From Crossiella sp. CA-258035 (lineage in GTDB: Bacteria > Actinomycetota > Actinomycetes > Mycobacteriales > Pseudonocardiaceae): a stretch of DNA of 64,000 nucleotides. Positions 8,867-63,955 of the stretch are shown here, one piece after another. Within the stretch, counting starts at the first letter, position 1. Every line of letters begins with the position of its first letter. A model generated the notes under the pieces. It was not told where the DNA came from, did not search any database, and saw only the letters and a list, made by a program, of their open reading frames with translations. Both the position numbers and the translations under genes were made by a program. The stretch covers positions 3,132,001-3,196,000 of the forward strand of contig NZ_CP116413.1 of assembly GCF_030064675.1 (NCBI RefSeq), given 5' to 3'.

Positions 8867-9973
8867 GTGAACCCGCCGACCGACACCGCTCCCGACACCT
8901 CGGCCGCGTTGCCCAGGTGGAGTCTGCTCGTCCCGCCGCTGGCGCTGGTGCTGCTGGTGGTCTCCTGGGGCCGTGACCTCAACCCGGTGCTGCTCATACT
9001 CGTCTGCGCCGCCCTCGGCGGGGCGGTGGTGGCCGCGGTGCACCACGCCGAGGTGGTCGCGCACCGGGTCGGCGAACCCTTCGGCACGCTGATCCTGGCC
9101 GTCGCGGTGACCGTGATCGAGGTCGCGCTGATCGTCACCCTGATGTCCTCCGGCGGCCCGGACAGCTCGACCCTGGCCAGGGACACCGTGTTCGCCGCGA
9201 TCATGATCACCTGCAACGGGATCGTCGGGCTGGCGCTGCTGGCCGGTGCGCTGCGGCACCGGGTGCAGGAGTTCCGCGCGCACGCCTCCGGTGGCGCGCT
9301 CGCGGTCACCCTGGCGCTGGTCACGCTGAGCCTGGTGCTGCCTGCCTTCACCACCAGCTCCGCCGGGCCGACCTTCACCGGCCCGCAGCTGGCCTTCGCC
9401 GGGGTCGCCTCGCTGACCATGTACGGCGTGTTCGTCTTCGTGCAGACCAAGCGGCACCGCGACTACTTCCTGCCCAAGACCGACAGCACCCCCGACGAGC
9501 ACGCCCCCGCGCCGAGCGCGCGCACCGCGTGGGTGAGCCTCGGGCTGCTGGCGGTGTGCCTGGTCAGCGTGGTCGGCCTGGCCAAGGCGGTGTCCCCGGC
9601 ACTGGAGGCCGCGGTGGACGGCCTCGGCGCGCCGCGCACCGTGGTGGGCCTGCTGATCGCACTGCTGGTGCTGCTGCCGGAGACGGTGGCCGCGGTCCGC
9701 GCCGCGCTGCGCGACCGGCTCCAGGTCAGCCTCAACCTGGCGCTGGGCTCGGCGCTGGCCAGCATCGGCCTGACCATTCCGGCCATCGCGTTGGCCTCGA
9801 TCTGGCTGACCGGGCCGCTGGTGCTGGGCCTGGGCGCCAAGGAGATGGTGCTGCTCGCGCTCACCGGCGCGGTGGGCACGCTGACCCTGGTCTCCGGGCG
9901 GGCCACCGTGCTGCAGGGCGCGGTGCACCTGATGGTGTTCAGCGCCTTCCTGTTCCTGGCGGTCACTCCTTGA
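8867..9973 (+). CDS. chaA: Calcium/proton (ChaA-type) cation antiporter
   Basis: 368 residues, about 11 membrane helices, in the CaCA superfamily. Both alpha-repeat signatures are present: GEPFGTLILAVAVTVIEVAL in the first half and LPETVAAVRAAL...GSALASIGLTIP in the second. It would export Ca2+ (possibly Na+/K+) in exchange for protons at the cytoplasmic membrane. GTG start; a TAGGGT -10 element (8855-8860) ends 6 bases upstream, so the mRNA is probably leaderless. Confidence 0.92.
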   Translation: MNPPTDTAPDTSAALPRWSLLVPPLALVLLVVSWGRDLNPVLLILVCAALGGAVVAAVHHAEVVAHRVGEPFGTLILAVAVTVIEVALIVTLMSSGGPDSSTLARDTVFAAIMITCNGIVGLALLAGALRHRVQEFRAHASGGALAVTLALVTLSLVLPAFTTSSAGPTFTGPQLAFAGVASLTMYGVFVFVQTKRHRDYFLPKTDSTPDEHAPAPSARTAWVSLGLLAVCLVSVVGLAKAVSPALEAAVDGLGAPRTVVGLLIALLVLLPETVAAVRAALRDRLQVSLNLALGSALASIGLTIPAIALASIWLTGPLVLGLGAKEMVLLALTGAVGTLTLVSGRATVLQGAVHLMVFSAFLFLAVTP

Positions 9974-10109
9974 CCGCGTGCGCGATGCGCGTCAGCAACC
10001 GGTCGATCTCGCGGCGCCGCCGGGCCGCCCGGCGGCGCAGCTCCTCGCCCGCCGCGGCCTGCCTGCGCTCGATCTCCTGCTCCGGCAGGGTGAGCTCCTC
10101 AGCCTGCAT
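9963..10109 (-). CDS. Small, highly charged 48-residue protein downstream of hsp20
   Basis: A short reading frame of 48 codons. It has an excellent ribosome-binding site (AAGGAGG, 10117-10123) 7 bases before the ATG and strong G/C bias at third positions. The product is alternating acidic/basic with a run of Arg (RRRAARRRREIDRL) and reads as one long amphipathic or coiled-coil helix. Its 3' end overlaps the end of the antiporter gene by 11 bases. It lies 95 bases downstream of hsp20 on the same strand and may be co-transcribed. Function unknown. Confidence 0.65.
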   Translation of the reverse strand: MQAEELTLPEQEIERRQAAAGEELRRRAARRRREIDRLLTRIAHAVKE

Positions 10110-10204
10110 CGGCACACCTCCTTGAAGAATGCCCAAAGCGGGCGATGGCCCCGGCTGGACGCGCGCAGGACCACCGCCCGGTGTCGGTTCGTCAGTGCGC
10201 GGGG

Positions 10205-10648
10205 TCAGGCCTTGATCTGCTTGCGGTCGCCCTGCGCGCCGCCGATGGCGATCTTGCGCGGCTTGGCCTGTTCGGCGACCGGGATCCGCAGGGTGAGCAC
10301 GCCTGCCTCGTAGTCGGCCTTGATCTGCTCGGTGTCCAGGGTGTCGCCGAGGAACAGCTGGCGGGAGAACACGCCCAGCGGCCGCTCCGCGACCTGCATC
10401 TCGACGTTGTCGCCGGTGACCACCGGACGGCGCTCGGCCTTGACGGTCAGCACGTTGCGCTCCACGTCCAGCTCGATCGCCTCCGGGGAGACGCCCGGCA
10501 GGTCGAAGGACACCACGAACTCATCGCCCACCCGGCAGGCGTCCATCGGCATCGCCGTCGGACGGGACCAGGTTCCAGACCCCTGACTGCCGAAGAACTG
10601 CTGGGCGAGCCGGTCGAACTCCCGGAACGGGTCGGTGCGCATCAACAT
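10205..10648 (-). CDS. Small heat-shock protein, Hsp20/alpha-crystallin family (Hsp18-like)
   Basis: 147 residues. An N-terminal arm ([17 protein letters not shown]) typical of actinobacterial Hsp18 leads into an alpha-crystallin domain (about residues 38-130) that closes with the GVLTLRIPV motif (G-x-L family signature). It is an ATP-independent holdase that keeps unfolding proteins soluble. AGGAGG lies 7 bases upstream of the ATG. The promoter overlaps a palindromic operator shared in design with the divergent regulator gene, so heat-controlled derepression is likely. Confidence 0.95.
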
Positions 10649-10693
10649 CGTTCCACCTCCTGTGATCCCCGTTTGGTGTCAACGCGCACCGTC

Positions 10694-50807: not shown

Positions 50808-50818
50808 CATACGATATG
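50808..50818. promoter_or_regulatory. CATACNGTATG-type operator over the moaA promoter
   Basis: CATACGATATG, one mismatch from the palindrome found perfectly at 55172-55182 and 57071-57081; with flanks it is GCATAC-G-ATATGC. It covers TACGAT (50810-50815), which is placed as the -10 box for a leaderless moaA transcript starting at 50822. Confidence 0.65.
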
Positions 50819-50821
50819 CAG

Positions 50822-51820
50822 ATGACCGGGCTTGGGTTGCTGGACTCGTTTGGCCGAGTCGCGACAGACCTGCGAGTTTCCCTCATCGACAAGTGCAACC
50901 TGCGCTGCACCTACTGCATGCCCGCCGAGGGCCTGGACTGGCTGGCGAAGCCGGAGTTGTTGACCGGCGCGGAGTTCGTCCGGCTCATCGGCATCGCGGT
51001 GCATGAGCTCGGCGTCACCGATGTCCGGTTCACCGGCGGGGAACCGTTGCTGCGCCGGGACTTGCCGGAGATCGTGGCCGGGGTGGCCGCGTTGACGCCC
51101 CGGCCGCGGATCGCGCTGACCACCAACGGCATCGGACTCGCCAAGGTCGCGGACGCGCTCGCGGCGGCGGGGCTGGACCGGGTGAACGTCTCGCTGGACA
51201 CCTTGCGGGCGGAGCGTTTCGCCCGGATCACCCGGCGGGACCGGCTGCCCGACGTGCTGGCCGGACTGCGCGCCGCCCAGCAGGCCGGGCTGGGCCCGGT
51301 GAAGGTGAACTCGGTGCTGCTGCGCGGGATCAACGAGGACGAGGCCGCGCCACTGCTGCGGTTCTGCCTGGCCGCCGGCTACCAGCTGCGCTTCATCGAG
51401 CAGATGCCGCTTGACCCGCAGCACGGCTGGGACCGGTCGGCGATGGTGACCGCCGAGGAGATCCTCGGCCTGTTGCGGCAGGACTTCGAGCTGACCCCGG
51501 AACCGGGGGAGCGAGGCTCGGCACCGGCGGAACGCTGGCTGGTCAACGGTGGACCGGACACCGTGGGCGTGATCGGCTCGGTGACCCGGCCGTTCTGCGC
51601 CGACTGCGCGCGCACCCGGCTCACCGCCGACGGCCAGGTCCGGTCCTGCCTGTTCGCGCACACCGAGACCGACCTGCGCGCCGCGCTGCGCGGCGGGGCC
51701 GGGGACGCCGAGCTGGCCGAGCTGTGGCGGAAAGCCATGTGGGCCAAGCCGGCCGGGCACGGCATCGACCGGCCGGAGTTCGCCCAGCCGGACCGGCCGA
51801 TGAGCGCGATCGGCGGCTAG
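50822..51820 (+). CDS. moaA: MoaA, GTP 3',8-cyclase (molybdenum cofactor synthesis)
   Basis: 332 residues. Radical-SAM cluster Cys25-x3-Cys29-x2-Cys32 (CNLRCTYC), second cluster in [10 protein letters not shown] with a later Cys in RSCLFA, and the essential C-terminal Gly-Gly. It makes the cyclic pyranopterin precursor from GTP. The ATG at 50822 is chosen because the -10 box TACGAT ends 6 bases upstream; the in-frame ATG at 50816 lies inside the promoter. Lying beside fdhD and fdh genes, it could supply cofactor for formate dehydrogenase. Stop overlaps the convergent fdhD stop. Confidence 0.96.
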
Positions 51821-52650
51821 CCCACCGGTTCCAACAGTCGTTCGGCTCCGGTGTAGACGTTCATCGACGTGCCGCGCAGGAAGCCGATCACGGTCAGGCC
51901 GGTCTCCTCGGCCAGCTCGACCGCGAGCGAGGACGGGGCGGACACCGCGACCAGGGCGGGAATGCCGCCCATCACCGCCTTCTGCGCCAGCTCGAAGCTG
52001 GCCCGGCCGGAGACCAGCAGGATGGTCTCGCGCAGCGGCAGCCGGTCCTGCAACAGCGCCCAGCCCAGCAGCTTGTCCACCGCGTTGTGGCGACCCACGT
52101 CCTCCCGCACCGCCAGCAGCTCACCGTCCACTGTGCACAGTGCGGCCGCGTGCAGGCCGCCGGTGCGCTCGAACAGCAGCTGGGACTCGCGCAGCCGGTC
52201 GGGCAGGGCGCGCAGCACCGAGGGGTCGAGCCGGATCGGGTCCTCGCGGATGCTCCAGCGGGCCACCGTGCGCACCGCGTCCAGGCTGGCCTTGCCGCAC
52301 ACCCCGCAGGAGGAGGTGGTGTAGACGTTGCGCGCCAAGGAGAACTCGCTGACCGGGACGTGCGCGGCCAGGGTGACGTCCAGGACGTTGTAGGTGTTGC
52401 CGCCCTCGGTCCTCGCGCCGGGACAGTAGGCGATGCCCGCGAGGTCACCGGCCGCGCCGACCACGCCCTCGCTGACCAGGAAACCCGCGGCCAGCTCGAA
52501 GTCGTGGCCGGGCGTGCGCATGGTGATCGACAGCGGCGCGCCGTTGAGGCGGATCTCCAGCGGCTCCTCCACCACCAGGTCGTCCAGGCGGCGGGTGCGG
52601 GTGTCCGCGCGCAGGCGGGTGATCATGCGGCGGGCGATGCGGCGGCCCAT
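51817..52650 (-). CDS. fdhD: FdhD, sulfurtransferase for formate dehydrogenase
   Basis: 277 residues. Conserved [11 protein letters not shown] with the Cys-x-x-Cys that accepts sulfur, [18 protein letters not shown] and [11 protein letters not shown] motifs. It adds sulfur to the molybdenum cofactor and is required for formate dehydrogenase activity. It follows the NuoE/NuoF-like gene by one base, so they are one transcript. Confidence 0.96.
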
Positions 52651-52651
52651 G

Positions 52652-54097
52652 TCAGTGCTCCCTCTCCTCGTCCAGCAGCACCACCGAACCGGGACCGGCG
52701 GCGGGCAGCTGCCGGTCCAGCGCGGCCGGGCGGCTGAGCGCGCCGTTGACCAGTGCGGCGCGCAGGGTGCGGCCGGTGCGCACGCCACCGGCCGCGGCGA
52801 GAAGCCGGTGCAGGGTGCTGCCGCGCGGCAGCTCGTACACCCCCGGCCTGCGGACGATGCCGGAGACGCAGTACAGCCGGTTGGCCACCGGCACACCGGT
52901 GAGCACCGGGGGCACCGCGACCAGGGTCTCCACCGAGTGCACCACGGTCGGTCTGCCCAGTAGCACCGGCTCGGCCGGGAACGGCGGGGTGCCCCTCGGC
53001 TCGCCACGGCGGCCGGGATAGGTGCCGCCGCCGCGCCGCACCTCCAGGTCGAAGCTGCGGCCTGAGCCCAGGATGTCGCGGCCCAGCAGGCCCTTCTCCC
53101 TGGCCTGGGCCACCGCCTCGGTGACCACGCGGCGGGCGCGCGGGTACTCCCCGCGCAGGTGCAGGTAGCCGTGGCGGCTGCCGGTGGCGATGCCCGCGAT
53201 GGTCATCGCCTCCACCACCGCGAACGGGTCGCCCTCCAGCAGCACCCGGTCGGCGAAGGAGCCGGGATGGCTCTCGTCCGCGTCGCACACCAGGTAGTGC
53301 GGCCGGTTCCGTTGCCCGGCAAGGACTTCCCAGCTCCTGGCCACCGGCACCCCGGCTCCGTCCCTGCTGGGCAGGCCGGAGGCCAGCACCAGCCGGATGA
53401 TCTCGGCCGGGCCCATCCTCAGCGCGTGGTGCAGCGCGGTGTAGCCGCCGGTGCTGAGGTAGTCGGACAGACTGGCCGGGTCGACCTGGCCGATCCGGCG
53501 CAGCAGCACCAGGTGCTCCGCGCCCGCCTGCGGCACGGCGGCCTCGGCCGGGGGTTCCGGCCGGGCGTGCCGCAGGTCCAGCGCGGTGCTGATGGTGGAG
53601 TCCACAGTGGACGGCGCGGTGACCGCGGTGCGCGGCGGGTCACCGGCCTCGAAGACCAGGGCGGCCGGTGCGCGCTCGCACAGGCCCAGGCAGGGCGAAG
53701 GCTGCCAGAGCACCCCGCCCGCCGGGCGGCCGGCCGGACCCAGGCGACGTTCCAGGGTCCGGCACAGGGGAGTGGAACCCGTTGCGCGGCACGCGGGTCC
53801 GGCGCAGACGTGCAGCACCCGGCGCGGCCGGGGCCGCAGCGAGAACAGGGCGCACGAGGTGGCCACGCCGAAGACCTCGGCTGCGGAGAGGGTCAGGCGG
53901 CGGGACAGGTAGTCCAGTGCCGCCTCGCTGATCCAGCCCACCCGGTCGTTGAGCGAGTGCAGGGCCGGTAACAGCGCGTCGTGCGGGTTGGCGGTGGGCC
54001 CGCCGTCACTCCGACCGGAGGACGACGGGTCCAGCACGACATCAATGGCCGCGCGTTCCTCAGCGGAGGGTGCGGCGTCACGAAAGCGGGAATCCAT
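52652..54097 (-). CDS. NuoE-NuoF fusion-type formate dehydrogenase accessory subunit (shortened)
   Basis: 481 residues. Residues about 40-165 are NuoE-like with [2Fe-2S] Cys ligands in CAGPACRATG and CLGLCERAP. Residues about 200-480 are NuoF-like (ALHHALRMGPAEII, CDADESHPGSFADRVLLEGDP, RRGEPRGTPPFPAE, GRPTVVHSVETL, then an SLBB domain). Two things are missing: the GEETAL segment that normally precedes RRGEPR, and the C-terminal [4Fe-4S] domain. This subunit passes electrons from formate dehydrogenase to NAD+ in related systems. The catalytic subunit is not in the window. Confidence 0.85.
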   Translation of the reverse strand: MDSRFRDAAPSAEERAAIDVVLDPSSSGRSDGGPTANPHDALLPALHSLNDRVGWISEAALDYLSRRLTLSAAEVFGVATSCALFSLRPRPRRVLHVCAGPACRATGSTPLCRTLERRLGPAGRPAGGVLWQPSPCLGLCERAPAALVFEAGDPPRTAVTAPSTVDSTISTALDLRHARPEPPAEAAVPQAGAEHLVLLRRIGQVDPASLSDYLSTGGYTALHHALRMGPAEIIRLVLASGLPSRDGAGVPVARSWEVLAGQRNRPHYLVCDADESHPGSFADRVLLEGDPFAVVEAMTIAGIATGSRHGYLHLRGEYPRARRVVTEAVAQAREKGLLGRDILGSGRSFDLEVRRGGGTYPGRRGEPRGTPPFPAEPVLLGRPTVVHSVETLVAVPPVLTGVPVANRLYCVSGIVRRPGVYELPRGSTLHRLLAAAGGVRTGRTLRAALVNGALSRPAALDRQLPAAGPGSVVLLDEEREH

Positions 54098-54142
54098 GAG
54101 CTGCCCCCGGGAGGTCAGGCAGGTGGGAGGGGGGAGTGACGG

Positions 54143-55135
54143 TCAGGAAGCGACGGCGGCGGGCTGCCTGGTCACCGATGCGTTGAGCAGGTCGGCCATC
54201 GCGTGGATCGCTCTGAGCGTGGGAACTTCAGCGCCAGTCAGCTCCGCGAGCTCGACGACCGCCGCCAGGATGACGTCCAGCTCCAGGGGCTTGCCCTTCT
54301 CCAGGTCCTGGAGTGTGGAGGTCTTGTGCTCGCCGGCTTTCTCGGCCCCGGCCAGCCGTCGTTCGATGGAGATCTCGGGGTGGGACCCCAGCCGTCGCGC
54401 GACCTCCAGGGTCTCCCGCATCATCGACACCACCAGCCGCCTGGCGTCGTGGTGCCGGCAGATGGCGGCCATGGTGGAGCGGGTCAGCGCGGAGATCGGG
54501 TTGAACGCGATGTTGCCCATCAGCTTGAGCCAGATGTCCCGGCGGAGGTCGGCCTCCACCGGGCACTTGAGCCCGCCTTCGATCATCGCGGTGGAGAACT
54601 CCAGGCAGCGGGCGGAGATCGACCGGTCCGGCTCGCCGATGGAGAAGCGGGTGCCCTCCAGGTGGCGGATCACGCCGGGAGCCTCGATCTCGGTGGCCGC
54701 GTAGACCACGCAGCCGATGGCCCGCTGGACCGGGAGCGCGGCGCTGACCGCGCCGTCGGGGTCCACGCTGTTGATGCGGTGGTTCTCGAAGGGGCCGGGC
54801 AGACCGTGGAAGTACCACCACGGAATCCCGTTCTGCGCAGCGATGATGGTGGTGCGTTCGTGCAACAGCGGCTCGATCATCCGGCCCGCGGCGGCGTACG
54901 AGTTCGCCTTCAGGCCTAGGAAGATGTGGTCCACCGGGCCGACCTCGGCCGGGTCATCGGTTGCGTGTGGGGTGGCATGGAAGTCGCCGCGGTCGGAGAG
55001 CACCCGAACCCCGGCTTCGCGGATTGCCGAGAGGTGCGCACCGCGGGCGATGAGATGAACCTGCGCTCCGGCGCGGTGCAGGGCTGCACCCACGTACGCG
55101 CCGATGGCGCCGGCACCAAGAACAGCGATTCGCAC
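54143..55135 (-). CDS. Ketopantoate reductase-family (PanE/ApbA) dehydrogenase
   Basis: 330 residues from the GTG at 55135 (AGGAG 6 bases upstream); a frame to 55519 runs through the operator. NADP-binding RIAVLGAGAIGAYVGAAL, then AQNGIPWWYF, a catalytic Lys in DIWLKLMGNIAFNP and a helical C-terminal domain. The family reduces 2-keto acids. First gene of the operon that continues into the fdh subunit and fdhD, 45 bp apart. Its substrate in an oxalate/formate setting could be a small 2-keto acid such as a glyoxylate-derived one; unproven. Confidence 0.82.
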   Translation of the reverse strand: MRIAVLGAGAIGAYVGAALHRAGAQVHLIARGAHLSAIREAGVRVLSDRGDFHATPHATDDPAEVGPVDHIFLGLKANSYAAAGRMIEPLLHERTTIIAAQNGIPWWYFHGLPGPFENHRINSVDPDGAVSAALPVQRAIGCVVYAATEIEAPGVIRHLEGTRFSIGEPDRSISARCLEFSTAMIEGGLKCPVEADLRRDIWLKLMGNIAFNPISALTRSTMAAICRHHDARRLVVSMMRETLEVARRLGSHPEISIERRLAGAEKAGEHKTSTLQDLEKGKPLELDVILAAVVELAELTGAEVPTLRAIHAMADLLNASVTRQPAAVAS

Positions 55136-55171
55136 ATCACTCTCCTGTTCTTGTGTCGACAACTCATTCAG

Positions 55172-55182
55172 CATACAGTATG
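55172..55182. promoter_or_regulatory. Perfect CATACNGTATG operator between divergent reductase and selB units
   Basis: CATACAGTATG, a perfect 11-bp palindrome with one central base, 37 bases from the reductase start and 59 from selB. Identical layout to the sites upstream of oxc and moaA. GntR/FadR-type regulators often bind short sites of this form. Confidence 0.75.
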
Positions 55183-55240
55183 GAGTAGCCCGGTCAACGG
55201 GCCGCACGCGGCACGACCGCGTGGGTGAGGAGGCGTTGCG

Positions 55241-56983
55241 GTGCCTGAAGGGTTCGGGTTCCACTCGCCCCCGCCGATGCGCGTGGTCGCCACCGCCGGA
55301 GGCGCCGGAGCAGGCAAGTCCACCTTGGTGCGCGCGCTCACCGGACGGGATCCGTGGGCACGTCTGCCCTCGGGGCGAGTGCTGGCATTGGTGGATGAGG
55401 CGGTTCTGACGAGCGTGGCCACCGCGGAGGCGGTGGTGTTCGTGGTGGCGGCCGACCAGGAGTGGTCGGAGCAGGTGGCGATGCAGCTGGATGCGTTGCA
55501 CGCCTTGGACATCCGGCACGGGTTGCTGGTGGTGACCCGATCCGACCTGGCTGATCCCGGCCCGGTGCTGCGGCGGACCCGCCGCGCCATGGCCACCGGT
55601 GCGCTCGGCCGGATCGAGTCCGCGGTGGTCAGCGCGCGCACCGGCGCCGGCATCGACCGGCTGCGCCTGGTGCTGGACCGGCTGGCCGCCGCGCTGCCCC
55701 CGTCACCGGAGGTCCCGGTGCGGCTGTGGGCCGACGGGTGTGCGGAGGCGGGCGCGGAGGACAAGGGCGTGCTGGTCACCGGCACCCTGCTGACCGGGTC
55801 GATCGAGCGGGACACCGAACTGGCCGTGGGTGCGCAGGACCGGCGGCTGCGGGTGGGCGGGCTGGAGTCGTTGGGGCGTCAGGTGTCCGCGATGTCCGCT
55901 CCGGCCCGGATCACGGTTCACCTGCCCGAGGCGCAACCGGATGAGTCGTTCACCGGCGCCGCGCTGGTGACCCCTGGGCGGTGGCGGCACGTGGACGTGG
56001 TCGACGTGCGGTTGCGCCCGCTGCCCGGCCGCAAGCTGGGCGGGGTGCACGGGCACCTGGAGCTGGCGCTGGGCTCGGCCCGGCAGCCGGTGTTCCTCCG
56101 GGTGCTCGACGGCGACATCGCGCGACTGCGGCTGAGCGAGCCGCTGCCGCTGCGCATCGGCGACAAGGCGCTGCTGCGCGGGGCCGAGGAGGTGCTGGCC
56201 GGGTGCACCGTGCTGGACATCCTGCCGCCGGAGCTGGACACCGAGGCGCAGCTGGCCGGGCGTGGCCTTGAACTGATGAGTCGGTCAGCGATTCCCAACG
56301 GCGGCGACGAACTGCGCAGGCGCGGCCTGGTCAAGGCCGGCGACCTGCTGGCCATGGGCTGCGCCCTGCCGGTCGCGCCCAGGGCCGGAGACTGGCTGAT
56401 CGACCCGGCTGAGCTGGACGAGCTGTGCCAGCGACTGGCCGCCCTGGTGCGTGCCCGCGCGCGCGAACAACCCTATGACCCCGGCGTGCCCAAGGCGGAA
56501 GCGGTGGCACTGCTGGCTTTGCCACACCGAAGACTGCTCGAACCGGTGGCGAGAGCGGCTCGTGACCTCGGTGTGCGGATCAACCAGGGCCGACTGGTGC
56601 TCACCGAAGGCGGGACCGAGCTCCCGCAGCCGGTGCGGCAGGCGGTGGAGAAGCTGCGCGCCGAGCTGGCGCGCAGTCCCTTCAGCGCGCCGGAGGCCAA
56701 CCAGCTCGCCGCGTTGCGACTGACCCCCAAGTCGCTCGCGGCCGCCGTGCGCACCGGTCTGCTGCTCCGGCTGGCCGACGGCGTCTACCTCGGACCGGAT
56801 GCGGTGGAACGGGCGGTTGCGGTGTTGTGCACACTCCCACAGCCGTTCACCGTGGCCGCGGCCCGCACCGCGCTGGGCACCTCCCGCCGGGTCGCGGTGC
56901 CCCTGCTGGAACTGCTCGACACCCGCCGGATCACCGTCCGGCTACCCGACAGCAGACGTCGGATTCGCCCGGAACACGACTGA
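55241..56983 (+). CDS. selB: SelB-like translation factor with degenerate GTPase domain
   Basis: 580 residues, GTG start with GAGGAGG 7 bases upstream. The order of SelB domains is kept: GTPase (1-165), two beta-barrels (165-330: VLVTGTLLTGS, LVTPGRWRHVDVVDVRL), and C-terminal winged helices (380-580: LPQPFTVAAARTALGTSRRV). The P-loop GGAGAGKST and VTRSDLAD are present, but the switch I segment (GLTID in SelB) and switch II DVPGH are absent: LPSGRVLALVDE runs straight into AVVFVVAADQEW. Selenocysteine delivery by this protein is therefore doubtful. No selA, selD or tRNA-Sec is in the window. Confidence 0.85.
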   Translation: MPEGFGFHSPPPMRVVATAGGAGAGKSTLVRALTGRDPWARLPSGRVLALVDEAVLTSVATAEAVVFVVAADQEWSEQVAMQLDALHALDIRHGLLVVTRSDLADPGPVLRRTRRAMATGALGRIESAVVSARTGAGIDRLRLVLDRLAAALPPSPEVPVRLWADGCAEAGAEDKGVLVTGTLLTGSIERDTELAVGAQDRRLRVGGLESLGRQVSAMSAPARITVHLPEAQPDESFTGAALVTPGRWRHVDVVDVRLRPLPGRKLGGVHGHLELALGSARQPVFLRVLDGDIARLRLSEPLPLRIGDKALLRGAEEVLAGCTVLDILPPELDTEAQLAGRGLELMSRSAIPNGGDELRRRGLVKAGDLLAMGCALPVAPRAGDWLIDPAELDELCQRLAALVRARAREQPYDPGVPKAEAVALLALPHRRLLEPVARAARDLGVRINQGRLVLTEGGTELPQPVRQAVEKLRAELARSPFSAPEANQLAALRLTPKSLAAAVRTGLLLRLADGVYLGPDAVERAVAVLCTLPQPFTVAAARTALGTSRRVAVPLLELLDTRRITVRLPDSRRRIRPEHD

Positions 56984-57043
56984 TGAAGGGATCTCGGCGG
57001 GTGAATTCCGTCGAGCGGCCCACGTGCGGACCCTGGACAACGT

Positions 57044-57058
57044 TACTCCGACGGAGTA
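57044..57058. promoter_or_regulatory. 15-bp palindrome TACTCCGACGGAGTA upstream of oxc
   Basis: Perfect palindrome around one central base, 12 bp upstream of the CATACGGTATG operator. It may be a second regulator's site. As RNA it would be a hairpin with almost no loop, so a DNA site is more likely. Confidence 0.5.
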
Positions 57059-57070
57059 TCACTAAACCAC

Positions 57071-57088
57071 CATACGGTATGCAGTATG
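57071..57088. promoter_or_regulatory. CATACNGTATG operator with an extra half-site upstream of oxc
   Basis: CATACGGTATG (57071-57081) is a perfect palindrome; a third half-site GTATG follows at 57084-57088. It lies 115 bp before the oxc ATG, leaving room for a leader. Confidence 0.72.
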
Positions 57089-57203
57089 GGGATCGAGTGG
57101 TGTGCGGTCCGCGCAACGTCGGCCTTCACCAGTCACCACCAAACACAGCCCGAGTCGACCCAGAGCAGGCGACCGGGCAGCGACGTGAGGAGATGACGCA
57201 CCT

Positions 57204-58931
57204 ATGGCGCAGACTGCCGAGGCTCTGCCCAGCGCCAGCCAGGTCGAGGTGAAGGAGACCGGAGAAGGTCTCATCTCGGGCGGCCATCTGGTGGCGAAGG
57301 CTCTCAAGGCCGAAGGCGTCGACGTGGTGTTCACTCTGTGTGGCGGCCACATCATCGACATCTACGACGGCTGTGTGGACGAAGGCATCGAGGTCATCGA
57401 CGTCCGGCACGAGCAGGTGGCCGCGCACGCGGCCGACGGCTACGCCCGGATCACCGGCAAACCGGGCTGCGCGGTGGTCACCGCGGGACCGGGCACCACC
57501 GACGCGGTCACCGGGGTCGCCAACGCGCTGCGCGCGGAGAGCCCGATGCTGCTCATCGGCGGCCAGGGCGCGCTGAGCCAGCACAAGATGGGCTCACTGC
57601 AGGACCTGCCGCACGTGGACATGATGGCCCCGATCACCAAGTTCGCCGCCACCGTGCCGGACACCGCCCGCGCGGCGGACCTGGTCTCGATGGCCTTCCG
57701 CGAGTGCTACCACGGCGCGCCCGGCCCGTCCTTCCTGGAGATCCCCAGGGACGTGCTGGACGCCTCGGTCCCCATCGAGAAGGCCCGCATCCCCAAGGCG
57801 GGCCACTACCGCGCCTCCACCCGGTCGGCGGGTGACCCCGGCGACATCGAGAAGCTGGCCGACCTGCTGACCAAGGCGGAGAAGCCGTGCATCCTGCTCG
57901 GCAGCCAGGTCTGGACCACCCGGGGCACCGACTCGGCCATCGACCTGGTCCGCGGCCTCAACATCCCCGCCTACATGAACGGCGCCGGCCGTGGCACGCT
58001 GCCGCCCGGCGACCCGCACCACTTCCAGCTCTCCCGCCGCTACGCCTTCACCAACGCCGACCTGATCATCATCGTGGGCACCCCGTTCGACTTCCGGATG
58101 GGTTACGGCAAGCGGCTTTCCGCCGACGCCACCGTGGTGCAGATCGACCTGGACTACCGCACGGTCGGCAAGAACCGCGACATCGACCTGGGCATCGTCG
58201 GTGACGCCGGCATGGTGCTCTCCCAGGTCTTCCAGGCCACCACCGGCCGGGTCAGCAACGGCGCCACCGGGCGCAAGGCCTGGCTGGAGGAGCTGCGCGC
58301 GGTGGAGGAGCAGTCGCTGGGCAAGCGGATGGCCCGGCAGCGCTCCAACGCCAACCCGATCGACCCCTACCGCCTGGTGCACGAGATCAACGAGTTCCTC
58401 ACCGAGGACTCCATCTACATCGGCGACGGCGGCGACATCGTCACCTTCTCCGGCCAGGTGGTCCAGCCCAAGTCGCCCGGCCACTGGATGGACCCGGGCC
58501 CGCTGGGCACCCTCGGCGTGGGCATCCCGTTCGTGCTGGCGGCCAAGTACGCCCGCCCGGACAAGGAGGTCGTCGCGCTCTTCGGCGACGGCGCCTTCTC
58601 CCTGACCGGCTGGGACTTCGAGACCCTGGTCCGGTACAACCTGCCGTTCGTGGGCATCGTGGGCAACAACTCCTCGATGAACCAGATCCGCTACGGCCAG
58701 GCGGTCAAGTACGGCGAGGACCGCGGCCGGGTCGGCAACACCCTCGGCGACGTGCCCTACGACCAGTTCGCCAAGATCCTCGGCGGCTACGGCGAGGAGG
58801 TCCGCGACCCCGCCGACATCGCGCCCGCGCTCCAGCGCGCCCGCGAGTCGGGGCTGCCGTCGCTGATCAACGTGTGGGTAGACCCGGACGTCTACGCGCC
58901 GGGAACCATGAACCAGACCATGTACAAGTAG
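57204..58931 (+). CDS. oxc: Thiamine-diphosphate enzyme, probable oxalyl-CoA decarboxylase
   Basis: 575 residues with the three domains of the acetolactate synthase/oxalyl-CoA decarboxylase superfamily. The cofactor-activating Glu70 lies in RHEQVAAHAADGYAR; the ThDP/Mg motif starts GDGAFSLTGWDFETLVRYN and ends VGNN (about residues 465-495). Sequence alone leaves acetolactate synthase-like or 2-hydroxyacyl-CoA lyase activity possible; the immediately following formyl-CoA:oxalate CoA-transferase gene makes oxalyl-CoA -> formyl-CoA + CO2 the best reading. GAGGAG lies 11 bases before the ATG. Confidence 0.8.
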   Translation: MAQTAEALPSASQVEVKETGEGLISGGHLVAKALKAEGVDVVFTLCGGHIIDIYDGCVDEGIEVIDVRHEQVAAHAADGYARITGKPGCAVVTAGPGTTDAVTGVANALRAESPMLLIGGQGALSQHKMGSLQDLPHVDMMAPITKFAATVPDTARAADLVSMAFRECYHGAPGPSFLEIPRDVLDASVPIEKARIPKAGHYRASTRSAGDPGDIEKLADLLTKAEKPCILLGSQVWTTRGTDSAIDLVRGLNIPAYMNGAGRGTLPPGDPHHFQLSRRYAFTNADLIIIVGTPFDFRMGYGKRLSADATVVQIDLDYRTVGKNRDIDLGIVGDAGMVLSQVFQATTGRVSNGATGRKAWLEELRAVEEQSLGKRMARQRSNANPIDPYRLVHEINEFLTEDSIYIGDGGDIVTFSGQVVQPKSPGHWMDPGPLGTLGVGIPFVLAAKYARPDKEVVALFGDGAFSLTGWDFETLVRYNLPFVGIVGNNSSMNQIRYGQAVKYGEDRGRVGNTLGDVPYDQFAKILGGYGEEVRDPADIAPALQRARESGLPSLINVWVDPDVYAPGTMNQTMYK

Positions 58932-58952
58932 GCCCGGAGGGGGAGTTCGGTT

Positions 58953-60182
58953 ATGGGACAAGCACTTGAGGGTGTTCGAGTCCTGGACATGACCCACGTC
59001 CAGTCCGGGCCGTCGGCCACCCAGATCCTGGCCTGGCTCGGCGCGGACGTGGTCAAGCTGGAGGCGCCCAGCGGGGACATCACCCGCAAGCAGCTGCGCG
59101 ACATCCCCGATGTCGACAGCCTCTACTTCACCATGCTCAACTGCAACAAGCGCAGCATCACGCTGAACATGAAGAGCGACAAGGGCAAGGAGCTGTTCAC
59201 CAGGCTCGTGTCCGATGTGGACATCCTGGTGGAGAACTTCGGTCCGGGCGCGGTGGACCGGATGGGCTTCACCTGGGACAAGCTCCAGGAGATCAACCCC
59301 AGGCTGATCTACGCCTCCATCAAGGGTTTCGGTGACGGGCCCTACACCCACTACAAGGCCTACGAGGTGGTCGCCCAGGCCATGGGCGGCTCGATGACCA
59401 CCACCGGCTTCGAGGACGGCCCGCCGCTGGCCACCGGCGCGCAGATCGGCGACTCCGGCACCGGCATCCACACCGTGGCCGGCATCCTGGCCGCGCTGTA
59501 CCAGCGGGAGTCCACCGGGCGCGGCCAGCGGGTCACCGTGGCCATGCAGCACGCGGTGCTCAACCTGTGCCGGGTCAAGCTGCGCGACCAGCAGCGCCTG
59601 GCGCACGGGCCGCTGGCGGAGTACCCCAACAAGGAGTTCACCGACGAGGTGCCGCGCTCGGGCAACGCCTCCGGTGGCGGCCAGCCGGGCTGGGCGGTGC
59701 GGTGCAAGCCGGGCGGGCCCAACGACTACGTCTACGTGATCGTGCAGCCCGTCGGCTGGCAGCCCATCGCCGAGCTGATCGGGCGGCCGGAGCTGGCCGA
59801 GGATCCCGAGTGGGCCACCCCGGAAGCCCGGTTGCCCAAGCTGGACAAGATGTTCCAGCTGATCGAGGAGTGGACGGTCAACCACACCAAGCGCGAAGTG
59901 CTGGCCATGCTCAACGCCAAGAACGTCCCTTGTGGACCGATCCTGTCCACAAAGGAGCTGATCGAGGACGAGTCGCTGGTGGCCAACGAGATGGTGGTGA
60001 CGGTGGACCACCCCGAGCGCGGGGCGTTCAAGACCGTCGGCATGCCGCTCAAGCTGTCCGACTCGCCTGCCAAGGTCGAGCGGTCCCCGCTGCTCGGCGA
60101 GCACAACGAGGACGTGTACGTGAAGGAGCTGGGGGTTTCCGTCCCGGAACTGGCCCAGCTCAAGGCGAACGGAGTGATCTGA
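58953..60182 (+). CDS. frc: Formyl-CoA:oxalate CoA-transferase
   Basis: 409 residues, class III CoA-transferase. From memory of the E. coli/Oxalobacter enzymes the match is close throughout: [49 protein letters not shown]. The catalytic Asp is Asp167 (IGDSGTG) and the flexible glycine loop is GGGQPGW (241-247). It moves CoA from formyl-CoA to oxalate, making oxalyl-CoA for the decarboxylase upstream and releasing formate. It starts 21 bases after oxc. Confidence 0.95.
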
Positions 60183-60185
60183 GCC

Positions 60186-62324
60186 ATGGTGGCTTACGAC
60201 AGGGCCGCGGTGCGCGAAGTCCTGGACAAAGCGCGCGCCGAGGGCCGCGAGTCGCTGACCGCCCCCGAGGGCAAACGACTCTGTGACGCCTACGGCATCC
60301 CGACGCCGGGCGAAGGACTCGCCAACAGGGCGGACGAGGCGGTGAGCCTGGCGGCCGGAATCGGCTTCCCGGTGGTCATGAAGATCGTCTCGCCGGACAT
60401 CCTGCACAAGACCGAGGCCGGCGGCGTCATCGTCGGCGTCACCGACGAGGCCGGTGCCCGCGCCGCCTACGAGAAGATCATCGCCAACGCCAAGGCGTAC
60501 CAGGCGGATGCCGACATCACCGGTGTCCAGGTGCAGCAGCTGCTCGCCGAGGGCCAGGAGGTGATCATCGGCGCGACCACCGACGAGACCTTCGGCAAGA
60601 TCGTGGTCTTCGGCCTGGGCGGGGTGCTGGTGGAGGTCCTCAAGGACGTCACCTTCCGGCTGGCCCCGCTGGCGCAGGCCGAGGCGCGGGCCATGGTGGA
60701 GGACATCAAGGCGGTGGAGATCCTGCACGGGGTCCGCGGCGCCGACCCGGTGGACCTTGATGCGCTGGCCGAGGTGGTCAAACGGCTGTCGGACCTGGTC
60801 ACCGACTTCCCGGAGATCCGCGAGCTGGACCTCAACCCGGTGTTCGCGGCCAAGGACTCCGCGATCGCCGCGGACGTCCGGGTGCTGGTGGAGACCGGGG
60901 AGATCACCGAGAAGCACGTCTACTCCGACGAGGAGATCATCACCGCGATGAACCGGCTGATGAAGCCGAAGAACATCGCGGTGATCGGCGCCTCGGCCGA
61001 GGACGGCAAGATCGGCAACTCGGTGATGAAGAACCTGGTCAACGGCGGCTACCAGGGCGGCATCTTCCCGATCAACCCGAAAGCGGACGAGATCCTGGGC
61101 CGCAAGGCGTACAAGGCGATCGGCGACGTGCCCGCCGATGTGGACGTGGCGGTCTTCGCCATCCCGGCCAAGTTTGTGGCCGGGGCGCTGGCGGAGTGCG
61201 GCAAGAAGGGCATCCCGGCCGCCGTGCTCATCCCCTCCGGCTTCGCCGAGACCGGCAACCACGAGCTGCAGGACGAGGTCGTGGCGATCGCGCACCAGTA
61301 CAAGATCCGGCTGCTCGGCCCGAACATCTACGGGTACTACTACACGCCGGAGAACCTGTGCGCGACCTTCTGCACGCCGTATGACGTCAAGGGCGGGGTG
61401 GCGCTGACCTCCCAGTCCGGCGGCATCGGCATGGCCATCCTGGGTTTCTCCCGCACCACCAAGATGGGTGTCTCGGCCATCGTCGGCCTCGGCAACAAGT
61501 CCGATGTGGACGAAGACGACCTGCTCACCTTCTTCGAGCAGGACGAGAACACCCAGTGCGTGGCCATGCACCTGGAGGACCTGAAGAACGGCCGCGCCTT
61601 CGTGCAGGCGGCCAAGCGGATGACCAAGAAGAAGCCGGTGGTGGTGCTCAAGGCCGGCCGCACCTCGGCCGGGGCCAGGGCGGCCAGCTCGCACACCGGC
61701 GCGCTGGCCGGTGACGACAAGGTCTACGACGACATCCTGCGCCAGGCCGGGGTCGTGCGCGCCCCCGGGCTGAACGAGATGCTGGAATATGCCCGCGGGC
61801 TGCCGCTGCTGCCCACGCCCAAGGGCGAGAACGTCGTCATCATCACCGGGGCCGGTGGCTCCGGGGTGCTGCTCTCCGACGCGTGTGTCGACAATGGACT
61901 GTCCATGATGGAGATTCCACCCGACCTGGACGAGGCGTTCCGCAAGTTCATCCCGCCTTTCGGGGCGGCGGGCAACCCGATCGACATCACCGGCGGCGAA
62001 CCGCCCTCGACCTACGAGGCCACCATCCGGCTCGGCCTCGAGGACCCGCGGATCCACGCGCTCATCCTCGGCTACTGGCACACCATCGTGACCCCGCCGA
62101 TGGTCTTCGCCGAGGTCACCGCGCGGGTGGTGAACGAGGCCAGGGCCAAGGGCATCGACAAGCCGGTGGTCGCCTCACTGGCGGGTGACACCGAGGTGGA
62201 GCGGGCTAGTGAATACCTGTTCGACCATCGTATTGTCGCCTATCCCTACACCACGGAGCTCCCGGTCGCGGTGCTGGGCGCGAAGTACCGCTGGGCACGC
62301 GCGGCGGGATTGATCGAGAAGTAG
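60186..62324 (+). CDS. ADP-forming acyl-CoA synthetase, fused with ATP-grasp domain first
   Basis: 712 residues. Residues 1-230 are an ATP-grasp domain (GFPVVMKIVSPDILHKTEAGG, IRELDLNPVF); 255-370 a CoA-binding domain (KPKNIAVIGASAEDGKIGNS); 370-690 the succinyl-CoA-ligase-like part with the phospho-His503 in SSHTGALAG. The order beta-then-alpha is the reverse of the commoner Acs/Pat-type fusion. Such enzymes interconvert acyl-CoA + ADP + Pi with acid + CoA + ATP. Next to oxc-frc it may use formyl-CoA (yielding ATP) or prime oxalate as oxalyl-CoA; which one is not visible from sequence. Three bases separate it from frc. Confidence 0.85.
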   Translation: MVAYDRAAVREVLDKARAEGRESLTAPEGKRLCDAYGIPTPGEGLANRADEAVSLAAGIGFPVVMKIVSPDILHKTEAGGVIVGVTDEAGARAAYEKIIANAKAYQADADITGVQVQQLLAEGQEVIIGATTDETFGKIVVFGLGGVLVEVLKDVTFRLAPLAQAEARAMVEDIKAVEILHGVRGADPVDLDALAEVVKRLSDLVTDFPEIRELDLNPVFAAKDSAIAADVRVLVETGEITEKHVYSDEEIITAMNRLMKPKNIAVIGASAEDGKIGNSVMKNLVNGGYQGGIFPINPKADEILGRKAYKAIGDVPADVDVAVFAIPAKFVAGALAECGKKGIPAAVLIPSGFAETGNHELQDEVVAIAHQYKIRLLGPNIYGYYYTPENLCATFCTPYDVKGGVALTSQSGGIGMAILGFSRTTKMGVSAIVGLGNKSDVDEDDLLTFFEQDENTQCVAMHLEDLKNGRAFVQAAKRMTKKKPVVVLKAGRTSAGARAASSHTGALAGDDKVYDDILRQAGVVRAPGLNEMLEYARGLPLLPTPKGENVVIITGAGGSGVLLSDACVDNGLSMMEIPPDLDEAFRKFIPPFGAAGNPIDITGGEPPSTYEATIRLGLEDPRIHALILGYWHTIVTPPMVFAEVTARVVNEARAKGIDKPVVASLAGDTEVERASEYLFDHRIVAYPYTTELPVAVLGAKYRWARAAGLIEK

Positions 62325-62338
62325 GCCGACGGCTGACC

Positions 62339-62379
62339 GGTAGCAGGGGTCCCGTCGGCCAGCCGGGACCCCTGCTACC
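62339..62379 (+). terminator. Strong hairpin between the ligase and transporter genes
   Basis: Perfect 16-bp stem (62339-62354 with 62364-62379), 9-base loop, 14 bases after the ligase stop. No T-run. It either ends the oxc-frc-ligase transcript or lowers expression of the transporter that follows 58 bp later on the same strand. Confidence 0.82.
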
Positions 62380-62437
62380 AGGCCAGGGAGGTTCAACGGG
62401 CGGAGTCCGAGAGTTCTCGTGAAAGAGGTTTCTCATC

Positions 62438-63955
62438 ATGGATCCTTCGAACACCCCGAGCGCGGGGCCGGCCACCAGCGGGGGTAGCGACCTCGCCGGT
62501 GGCGGCCAGGAACGCGTGTGGCGGGCCGGTCGGCTCGATCCGATGCCCATCCGGAAGCTGCCCGACGCGCCACCGTCGGTGCACCTGATCGGCCCCACGG
62601 TGTTCCTGGTGGCACTCGGGGTCGGCATGGGCGAGTCCTACATGTGGCCCCGGCTGGTGCTGATCTTCGGCCCGGAGATCCGCTGGCTGTTCCTGATCGG
62701 CGTCACCCTGCAGGCCGTGGTGATGCTGGAGATGGCCCGCTACGCCATGGCTACCGGCGAGAGCATCTTCGCCGGCGCGGCCCGCGTGTTCAAACCGATC
62801 ATGTGGTTCTTCTTCGTGGTCGCGATCGCGGTCTACATCTGGCCGGGCCACCTCTCCGCGGGCATGTCGGCGCTGGAGAACATCACCGGAATACCTTGGC
62901 AGCTCAGCGCAATCGTCGGCCTGATCCTGGTCGGCGTGATCTTCAGCCTGGCCAAGGTGATCTACAACCTGCTGGAGAACGTGCTCTCGGTCCTGATCGG
63001 GATCCTGGTGGTCAGTACCGCGGTGGTGGCGGCACTGGTCGGCACCTGGGGCGACCTGGCCAGCACGATCAGCGGCATGTTCACCTTCGGGTACTTCCCG
63101 AGCGAGATGTTCACCTCTACCTGGTTCCCGATCGTGGTGGGCTCCATCGCCTTCGCCGGACCCTCCGGTATGCAGCAGATGTGGTACACGCTGCACCTGC
63201 GGGACTCCGGGGCCGGCATGGGCGCGCACATCCCGAAGATCAAGGGCCTGCGCAGCTCCGAATCGGGCGCGGACGAGCAGATGCCGGCCCGCGGCTTCAT
63301 GTTCGACACCGAGGACCCGGAGGAGATGGCCAAGTGGAAGGGCTGGCGGCGCTGGGTCACCTTCGACGCGCTGCTGCTGTTCTGGGGCGTGACCATGTTG
63401 GTCACGGTCTCCTTCACGGTGCTGGCGCAGACCGCGGCCCGGCAGAACCCCAACGTGAAGGAGCTGATCGCGGCCGGCGACCGCGGTGCCGCGTTCAACG
63501 CGATGGCCGACGCCTTCTCCTCACTCGGCGGTCCCGCGCTGGGCACGGTGTTCTTCGGCTTCATCGCGCTGATCGGGTTGAACGCCACCCTGGGCCTGTT
63601 CGACTCCTTCTCCCGCGGCCAGGCCGACATGACCTACTTCTTCGTGCCCGGCGCCAAGAAGATCGGCATGTCCCGGCTCTACGCCGGCTTCCTGTGGGGC
63701 CTGATCGTCTTCGGCATCATCATCCTGCTGTGGGGCCCGGCCAAGGGCCCGGCGGCGATCCTGGACATCCTGGCGTTCCTGTCCGCCTTCGCCATGGGCG
63801 CCTACTGCATCGTGTTGCTGTTGGTGAACAACAAGATGCTGCCCAAACCGATCCGGCCGAAGTGGTGGACCAACGTCATCATCGGCTTCGGCGCGGTGTT
63901 CTACCTGAGCGGGTTGTTCTACTCCCTGTTCGCCTACGGCGTGGTATTGGACTGA
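62438..63955 (+). CDS. Nramp-fold membrane transporter lacking metal-site motifs
   Basis: 505 residues, about 11 membrane helices after a 45-residue Gly/Ser-rich cytoplasmic start. The layout fits the Nramp (SLC11) branch of LeuT-fold transporters (GPTVFLVALGVGMGESYMWP as helix 1, IAFAGPSGMQQMW as helix 6). The metal-binding DPGN of helix 1 and MPH of helix 6 are replaced by GMGES and AGPSG. A metal ion is therefore unlikely to be the substrate; position after oxalate genes suggests oxalate or a related acid. An insertion of about 70 residues (RSSESGADEQMPARGF...) lies between helices 6 and 7. Confidence 0.78.
   Translation: MDPSNTPSAGPATSGGSDLAGGGQERVWRAGRLDPMPIRKLPDAPPSVHLIGPTVFLVALGVGMGESYMWPRLVLIFGPEIRWLFLIGVTLQAVVMLEMARYAMATGESIFAGAARVFKPIMWFFFVVAIAVYIWPGHLSAGMSALENITGIPWQLSAIVGLILVGVIFSLAKVIYNLLENVLSVLIGILVVSTAVVAALVGTWGDLASTISGMFTFGYFPSEMFTSTWFPIVVGSIAFAGPSGMQQMWYTLHLRDSGAGMGAHIPKIKGLRSSESGADEQMPARGFMFDTEDPEEMAKWKGWRRWVTFDALLLFWGVTMLVTVSFTVLAQTAARQNPNVKELIAAGDRGAAFNAMADAFSSLGGPALGTVFFGFIALIGLNATLGLFDSFSRGQADMTYFFVPGAKKIGMSRLYAGFLWGLIVFGIIILLWGPAKGPAAILDILAFLSAFAMGAYCIVLLLVNNKMLPKPIRPKWWTNVIIGFGAVFYLSGLFYSLFAYGVVLD

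Follow-up and report, generated by a model that had tools for sequence, protein, structure and literature searches.

A predicted oxalate regulon of Crossiella with a conserved operator and a SelB paralogue lacking GTPase motifs

We analyzed a stretch of 64,000 nucleotides from Crossiella sp. CA-258035 (G000:C1:3132001-3196000, referred to below as the window), whose genome, G000, is a single contig of 9.17 Mb. Toward its end lies a cluster of putative oxalate and formate genes that share a palindromic operator, CATACNGTATG, with a gene for a homologue of the selenocysteine factor SelB. Computation showed conservation of this operator in related genomes and the membership of the regulon that it marks; it also showed that the SelB homologue has lost the G2 and G3 motifs of its GTPase domain, groups with its relatives in a single clade, and evolves under purifying selection. 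We consider it fairly probable that the locus belongs to an oxalate regulon under GntR control that carries a GTPase-dead, probably RNA-binding derivative of SelB, a reading that joins three inferred steps. The locus would form the core of such a regulon in Crossiella and several other genera of its order. Gene calls were judged by Pfam and NCBIfam models against the model cut-offs.

The palindrome is present in the window as two exact copies (55172 and 57071) and as a copy with one mismatch at moaA (50808). These operators serve moaA, the oxc operon and, from a common site, both the run panE-nuoEF-fdhD headed by panE and the divergent SelB gene. The original prediction had postulated a palindrome shared by three transcription units, and this element proved to be real: the exact sequence occurs at two places in the whole genome, both in the window, and a reversed-pattern control at none. 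With up to two mismatches allowed, the window itself was not enriched (10 matches versus 6.0 expected, with 12 of 100 shuffles reaching 10). Five of the nine sites with one mismatch or fewer in the genome are gathered in a stretch of 17.6 kb that spans part of the window and the sequence directly beyond its end. With the background set from the control and the number of such windows corrected for, the probability of this clustering was about 2e-8. The remaining four are located at fdsG, approximately 20 bp upstream of the start of an aldehyde dehydrogenase open reading frame (ORF), inside a coding region, and in a ribosomal-protein region, the latter two being taken as chance occurrences. The operator at moaA (window 50808-50822) overlaps the apparent start codon, so that either the transcript may have no leader or translation may begin a few codons downstream.

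Comparison of the operator across genomes gave the strongest result of the analysis. Among 60 genomes, the exact pattern was found at 35 places in 17 genomes, compared with 12 places for the reversed pattern. Of the 33 exact places outside G000, 23 adjoin oxalate or formate dehydrogenase (FDH) genes as assigned by script, and two more were placed by eye (in G010 the site at FDH, and in G003 the collapsed site between panE and SelB). Targets that recur across genera are oxc, panE, ofa, sucC, gntR and FDH. An exact site is found at FDH genes in G010 and also in G033, there on a contig other than that of oxc, and in G047 fdsGBA lies within the same run of genes. The operator at fdsG, with one mismatch, is kept in all eight orthologues (five from Crossiella and three from the Kibdelosporangium group) obtained in a search of ten genomes, two of which gave no fdsG match, and that at moaA is kept in the sister species G001 and G002. 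Genome comparison thus supported the proposal that a single operator covers genes for both oxalate and formate, among them moaA and also fdhD, the latter by way of the site at panE. In the Crossiella genome G003 (L038, about 9068-10677), moaA, panE and the SelB paralogue are remnants and nuoEF and fdhD are missing from the locus; the oxc operon and both exact operators there are intact.

The regulon, as relatives support, is wider than originally predicted and extends to a carrier gene resembling OFA, sucCD-hyi-glxR-gcl, a GntR/FCD gene, an aldehyde dehydrogenase gene and fdsGBAD. It runs on past the end of the window, where a small ORF is followed by terC, the GntR/FCD gene, the OFA-like gene of the major facilitator superfamily (minus strand), and a divergent run sucC-sucD-hyi-glxR-gcl. 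Two operators with one mismatch lie between the OFA-like gene and the sucC run. SucC, sucD and glxR scored above their NCBIfam cut-offs and hyi below that of its model; gcl exceeded the cut-off of NF008431 (877 versus 791) and narrowly missed that of TIGR01504 (706 versus 711). A palindrome copy with two mismatches lies upstream of the GntR/FCD gene, and in G027 gntR is preceded by an exact copy. The earlier guess of a GntR-type regulator therefore has a candidate close to the window, and from gene neighbourhood and the nearby sites this protein may bind CATACNGTATG. It would most likely act there as a repressor that is released with oxalate or an oxalate-derived compound as the presumed inducer. 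The operators of oxc, sucC and the OFA-like gene each contain a second copy of the palindrome that overlaps the first with a 7-bp shift (ATACNGTATGCAGTAT type; 57071-57088 in the window, 5305-5322 and 5387-5404 in L015), possibly for cooperative binding. The aldehyde dehydrogenase (L017 5483-6899; G000:C1, about 4.292 Mb), of the succinate-semialdehyde type and below every equivalog cut-off, is encoded far from the cluster, and its operator is kept in five of five Crossiella genomes (one mismatch in four, two in the other).

Among the genes listed in the original prediction, moaA, fdhD and frc exceeded the cut-offs of their models, whereas oxc and the SelB gene did not. In the pathway that we propose, oxalate would be taken up and converted by Frc to oxalyl-CoA, which the thiamine diphosphate (ThDP) enzyme encoded by oxc would split, together with Frc, to formyl-CoA and formate. 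Neighbouring genes make the ThDP enzyme a probable oxalyl-CoA decarboxylase. Its score with the oxc model TIGR03254 was 238.3 bits (cut-off 739.4), and the best matches among solved structures were 2-hydroxyacyl-CoA lyases (7pt3, 276 bits), followed by proteins labelled as lyase, oxalyl-CoA decarboxylase or both; the decarboxylases of Escherichia coli (2q27) and Oxalobacter formigenes (2c31) gave 199 and 178 bits, respectively. Given these matches, the enzyme might be a 2-hydroxyacyl-CoA lyase that forms formyl-CoA, in a cluster that degrades some other hydroxy acid, and an actinomycete lyase producing formyl-CoA, with a GntR gene listed next to it, is described in PMC7176365. We regard this alternative as unlikely: Frc scored above its equivalog cut-off, PanE, Gcl and GlxR of the same regulon suit oxalyl-CoA and glyoxylate chemistry, an OFA-like carrier is under the same operator in several genera, and one close structure, 8vza, bears both labels.

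The panE gene, situated between the NuoE-NuoF fusion gene and the SelB gene, was absent from the original gene list. Its product belongs to the PanE/ApbA family according to the family models, and by analogy with PanE2 of Methylobacterium extorquens, the precedent for such a protein as oxalyl-CoA reductase (PMC8411744; PMC12686821), it may catalyze that reaction. Part of the carbon would then pass by way of PanE and Gcl-Hyi-GlxR to glycerate. An assimilatory branch consisting of PanE and sucCD-hyi-glxR-gcl, overlooked previously, is likely, and a scheme of oxalotrophy with an energy and an assimilatory branch is outlined in PMC12927642. The transporter of the window, which had been proposed to import oxalate, turned out to belong to the Nramp family, and the OFA-like gene outside the window is the better candidate for the carrier. 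In several genera, oxc-frc-ligase is succeeded by an Nramp-family gene (62438-63955 in the window) and a TerC-family gene (L015 1514-2545), a hint that the pathway requires a metal.

A genome-wide search with the motif, as proposed originally, picked out the catalytic FDH operon in trans. The operon, fdsG-fdsB-fdsA-fdsD, is located at about 6.792-6.797 Mb, 3.6 Mb from the cluster; fdsG has TATACCGTATG at its start, and FdsA, FdsG and FdsD exceeded the cut-offs of their models (TIGR01591, 904 versus 666; NF004638, 206 versus 198; PF11390, 59 versus 27). FdsGBAD would oxidize the formate released from oxalate. Two copies of moaA above the cut-off were detected in each of five Crossiella genomes searched; given that the moaA at the oxalate locus of G003 is a remnant of 36 residues, the second copy of that genome lies elsewhere. 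A second fdhD was found only in G000 and G237 (two of five Crossiella genomes), and G001 and G002 have no fdhD between moaA and nuoEF. These counts support cofactor synthesis as part of the regulon in the case of moaA and, in fewer genomes, of fdhD. A second moaA and, in G000, a second fdhD under the same operators would match the supply of molybdenum cofactor to the synthesis of FDH.

The NuoE-NuoF fusion had been thought to transfer electrons from formate to NAD. The copies in the window, G001 and G002 keep the 2Fe-2S cysteines, and the glycine motif for flavin mononucleotide (FMN), the CGEE motif and the COOH-terminal 4Fe-4S cysteines, all present in the intact homologue of G010 and in G047, are lost from all three. 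The fusion therefore cannot be a normal diaphorase, and its role as a working FDH subunit was rejected; it is not the working subunit of FdsGBAD, whose four genes are all present in trans with an operator. Despite the loss of motifs, the ratio of nonsynonymous to synonymous substitution rates (dN/dS) for the fusion gene was 0.08-0.33 (this and the following dN/dS ranges cover the pairs that gave valid estimates with the Biopython estimator).

The SelB homologue of the window scored 79.3 bits with TIGR00475 (cut-off 242.25). The genes for tRNA-Sec, selA and an intact selB lie together at 7.03 Mb of G000 (selC-selA-selB), and the gene in the window is therefore a second copy that shares 49% identity with the canonical SelB of the genome. 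Across 9.8 kb, the region of canonical selAB shares 95% identity with that of Crossiella sp. SN42 (L175). Neither G2 (RGxTI, in switch I) nor G3 (DxPGH) is present in the window copy or in any of the 11 sequences related to it in the tree; the P-loop is also altered in the Crossiella paralogues, with its lysine gone in G001. Of 107 SelB rows, as scored by sequence patterns, 76 have both motifs, 15 have neither (duplicates of the same genes included), three have G3 with only a variant of G2 (L176, L177 and L196), and 13 have no readable NH2-terminus (L062, L101, L104, L110, L112-L115, L117, L119 and L121-L123). The genomes behind L062, L101 and L104 are covered by L050 (G029), the tree row of G237, and L125 (G259, by contig coordinates), respectively, and L068 and L074, for which no reading frame was obtained, were left out of the reading of the G domain, as were several rows translated from the wrong strand. 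Switch I and DxPGH are thus present in the canonical rows with a readable G domain, apart from the three with G2 variants. The COOH-terminal winged-helix domain SelB-wing_3 is present in the paralogue (PF09107, 52.3 bits; cut-off 23.2), as is the winged-helix 4 motif of SelB, TSRRVAVPLLELLD. In canonical SelB, the winged-helix arm binds selenocysteine insertion sequence (SECIS) RNA.

A search of 390 genomes of the family at E <= 1e-90, which scored three candidates per genome and could have missed weaker paralogues, found the paralogue in four Crossiella and eight Kibdelosporangium-group genomes, that of L124 having been detected by sequence search and not by the gene caller. The named carriers are Kibdelosporangium aridum, K. 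philippinense, K. banguiense, Actinocrispum wychmicini, Actinosynnema sp. ALI-1.44, and a record under the name Rhodococcus rhodnii. In all six of these loci, the gene lies between panE and oxc and an exact operator precedes oxc; an operator with one mismatch is located in the panE intergenic stretch in five of the six. The 12 paralogues formed one clade with a support of 100/100 against 26 canonical rows, of which L098 and L079 are the same gene. A DUF6457 gene follows the paralogue in some Kibdelosporangium-group loci (L128 11686-11952, L129 11671-11925, L050 9785-10051; Pfam was run on L128 and L129). The contigs filed as Rhodococcus rhodnii NRRL B-16535 (L125, L138) bear a Kibdelosporangium-like oxalate locus, and that record is probably misnamed.

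A selenocysteine FDH was considered as a partner of the paralogue and rejected: five PF00384 matches were found in G000, with no in-frame stop codon in the matched stretches. FdsA and a protein resembling FdhF/YdeP have cysteine at the selenocysteine position as aligned by eye, two of the others resemble NasC and NuoG, and a protein of 1234 amino acids was covered over the matched stretch only. The original prediction had cast SelB as a selenocysteine factor for the pathway, a role that the absence of switch I and DxPGH, the separate intact selC-selA-selB and the cysteine of FdsA do not support. The genome retains tRNA-Sec, selA and an intact selB (L093 6041-9157; about 7.033-7.036 Mb), although none of the molybdopterin enzymes that were read was seen to be a selenocysteine FDH.

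The paralogue and the NuoE-NuoF fusion might both be decaying relics of a lost FDH operon that are still under the oxalate operator. Catalytic motifs have been lost from both, both genes are absent or remnants in G003, their dN/dS values in Crossiella exceed those of oxc and frc, and G010 has an intact homologue of the fusion after an FDH catalytic subunit under an operator. However, the reading frame of the paralogue is uninterrupted for about 560-580 codons in each of 12 genomes, which belong to two lineages that are about 50% identical. Five Kibdelosporangium-group pairs gave dN/dS values of 0.03-0.14 without any indel, and the Crossiella paralogues, with small in-frame indels, gave 0.10-0.34, a constraint about equal to that on canonical selB there (0.07-0.31). 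The remnant of G003 gave 0.17-0.59 over 137 codons. We therefore assign the relic explanation a low probability.

The predicted structure of the paralogue retains the full SelB fold (mean predicted local distance difference test score, pLDDT, of 84; top Foldseek matches 4zu9 and 5lzb). Together with the presence of the beta-barrel residues D165 and R223 among the invariant columns of alignment A2, this fold would suit a protein that still binds aminoacyl-tRNA and delivers or sequesters it without GTP hydrolysis, as has been proposed for the archaeal protein aSelBL (PMC3037878). Domain II, the part in contact with the aminoacyl end, is nevertheless less conserved in the paralogue than in canonical SelB (0.38 versus 0.59), whereas winged helices 1 and 2 are more conserved (0.48 versus 0.33), each value being for a single cross-genus pair with domain limits set by hand. 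Retention of aminoacyl-tRNA as the ligand thus appears improbable to us. Loss of the selenocysteine-binding pocket is not claimed, given that D165 and R223 are kept. The simplest function for the paralogue would be RNA binding without a GTP cycle, and it would most likely be a nucleotide-independent RNA-binding factor, acting for example on mRNA of the regulon, and not a participant in selenocysteine insertion. Comparison of sequences did not reveal a shared RNA leader as its target; Crossiella genomes conserve the leader of oxc, but in the Kibdelosporangium group oxc closely follows its operator. That a bacterial SelB duplicate has become a regulator that binds RNA independently of GTP and controls the metabolism of oxalate and formate, with its switch regions cut out, its SECIS-type arm kept and its gene under the oxalate operator, is a tentative proposal.

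Several observations weigh against an oxalate regulon with an RNA-binding SelB derivative. The paralogue evolves faster than the operon enzymes (dN/dS of 0.02-0.10 for oxc in Crossiella), is dispensable in G003, where it is reduced to a remnant of 142 amino acids, and may still bind aminoacyl-tRNA given its D165 and R223; an RNA target for it was not found. The exact pattern was absent from 43 of the 60 relatives, which were not sorted by content of oxalate genes, eight of the 33 exact sites outside G000 have no oxalate or FDH neighbour, and the nine sites with one mismatch or fewer in G000 compare with 11 for the reversed control, so that there is no overall excess. In addition to the shortfall of the ThDP enzyme against the oxc model, the OFA-like carrier scored below the cut-offs of TIGR00890 (126.6 versus 374.85 bits) and TIGR04259 (109 versus 335), and its best match, to the L-lactate carrier model NF049980 (133 versus 320), was also below cut-off.

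The cluster resembles known oxalotrophy systems (PMC12927642, PMC8411744) in frc, the ThDP enzyme, FDH, a PanE-family reductase, Gcl and GlxR, which are here under one operator; it differs from them in this common operator and the GntR/FCD gene, FDH in trans, the second moaA and fdhD, the SelB paralogue, and the low score with the oxc model. The paralogue shares its overall fold, domains II and III and the winged-helix 4 motif with canonical bacterial SelB (TIGR00475; 4zu9, 5lzb) and differs in its lack of switch I and DxPGH, its altered P-loop in Crossiella, and its position as a second copy at the oxalate locus. Archaeal aSelBL, too, is a duplicate of SelB whose G domain is disrupted (PMC3037878; see also PMC4342817). 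It retains altered G2 and G3 motifs and lacks the COOH-terminal extension, whereas the bacterial paralogue has its G2 and G3 removed and the COOH-terminal arm kept; the lack of an extension that defines aSelBL membership therefore does not apply to it. If the tentative proposal above is true, the paralogue would be a bacterial pseudo-translational GTPase and a domain-wise mirror image of aSelBL. Yeast Tsr1, which imitates the structure of translational GTPases but is inactive (PMC4895721), is similar in having the architecture of such a protein without the GTP-binding residues; it differs in being a eukaryotic ribosome-biogenesis factor. One or two duplications in bacteria are counted in the available part of a survey of the SelB family (PMC4342817), and none appears in that of PMC1780047. 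We recognized neither an oxalate GntR regulon nor a bacterial SelB paralogue in the open-access literature, subscription journals being outside the scope of the search; PMC8305402 mentions the subjects concerned, but in places that have nothing to do with one another.

Table 1. Genes and operators of the predicted oxalate regulon in and near the window. Positions refer to the window, except for the regulator gene.
Feature	Position	Strand	Remarks
Operator, one mismatch, CATACGATATG	50808..50818		Overlaps start of moaA; one-mismatch copy at same place in G001 and G002
moaA, second copy of the genome (other near 0.544 Mb)	50816..51820	+	TIGR02666, 363 bits (cut-off 284)
fdhD, second copy	51817..52650	-	NF001943, 380 bits (cut-off 269)
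NuoE-NuoF fusion, degenerate	52652..54097	-	2Fe-2S cysteines kept, other motifs lost
PanE-family reductase, candidate oxalyl-CoA reductase	54143..55135	-	PF02558, PF08546 and NF005089 above cut-off
Operator, exact, CATACAGTATG	55172..55182		Between divergent panE and SelB paralogue
SelB paralogue, GTPase-dead	55241..56983	+	No G2 or G3, P-loop altered; winged-helix 4 motif kept
Operator, exact, CATACGGTATG	57071..57088		Overlaps second copy with two mismatches (57078-57088)
ThDP enzyme, probable oxalyl-CoA decarboxylase by context	57204..58931	+	Below cut-off of oxc model
frc, formyl-CoA:oxalate CoA-transferase	58953..60182	+	TIGR03253, 668.6 bits (cut-off 504.2)
ADP-forming acyl-CoA ligase, fused subunits	60186..62324	+	Pfam domains above cut-off; no NCBIfam equivalog
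Nramp-family transporter	62438..63955	+	NF037982, 449 bits (cut-off 50)
GntR/FCD regulator gene	3197938-3198702	-	About 2 kb past window end; PF00392, 66.7 bits; PF07729, 96.4 bits

The analysis provides a concrete and testable prediction of an oxalate regulon for soil actinomycetes, with an operator, a candidate regulator, a list of targets, both carbon branches and an FDH in trans. Annotation of a gene as selB should not be taken as evidence for a selenoprotein. If true, the re-use, next to a metabolic operon, of a translational GTPase that has lost its GTP switch would add a new role to those of the family.

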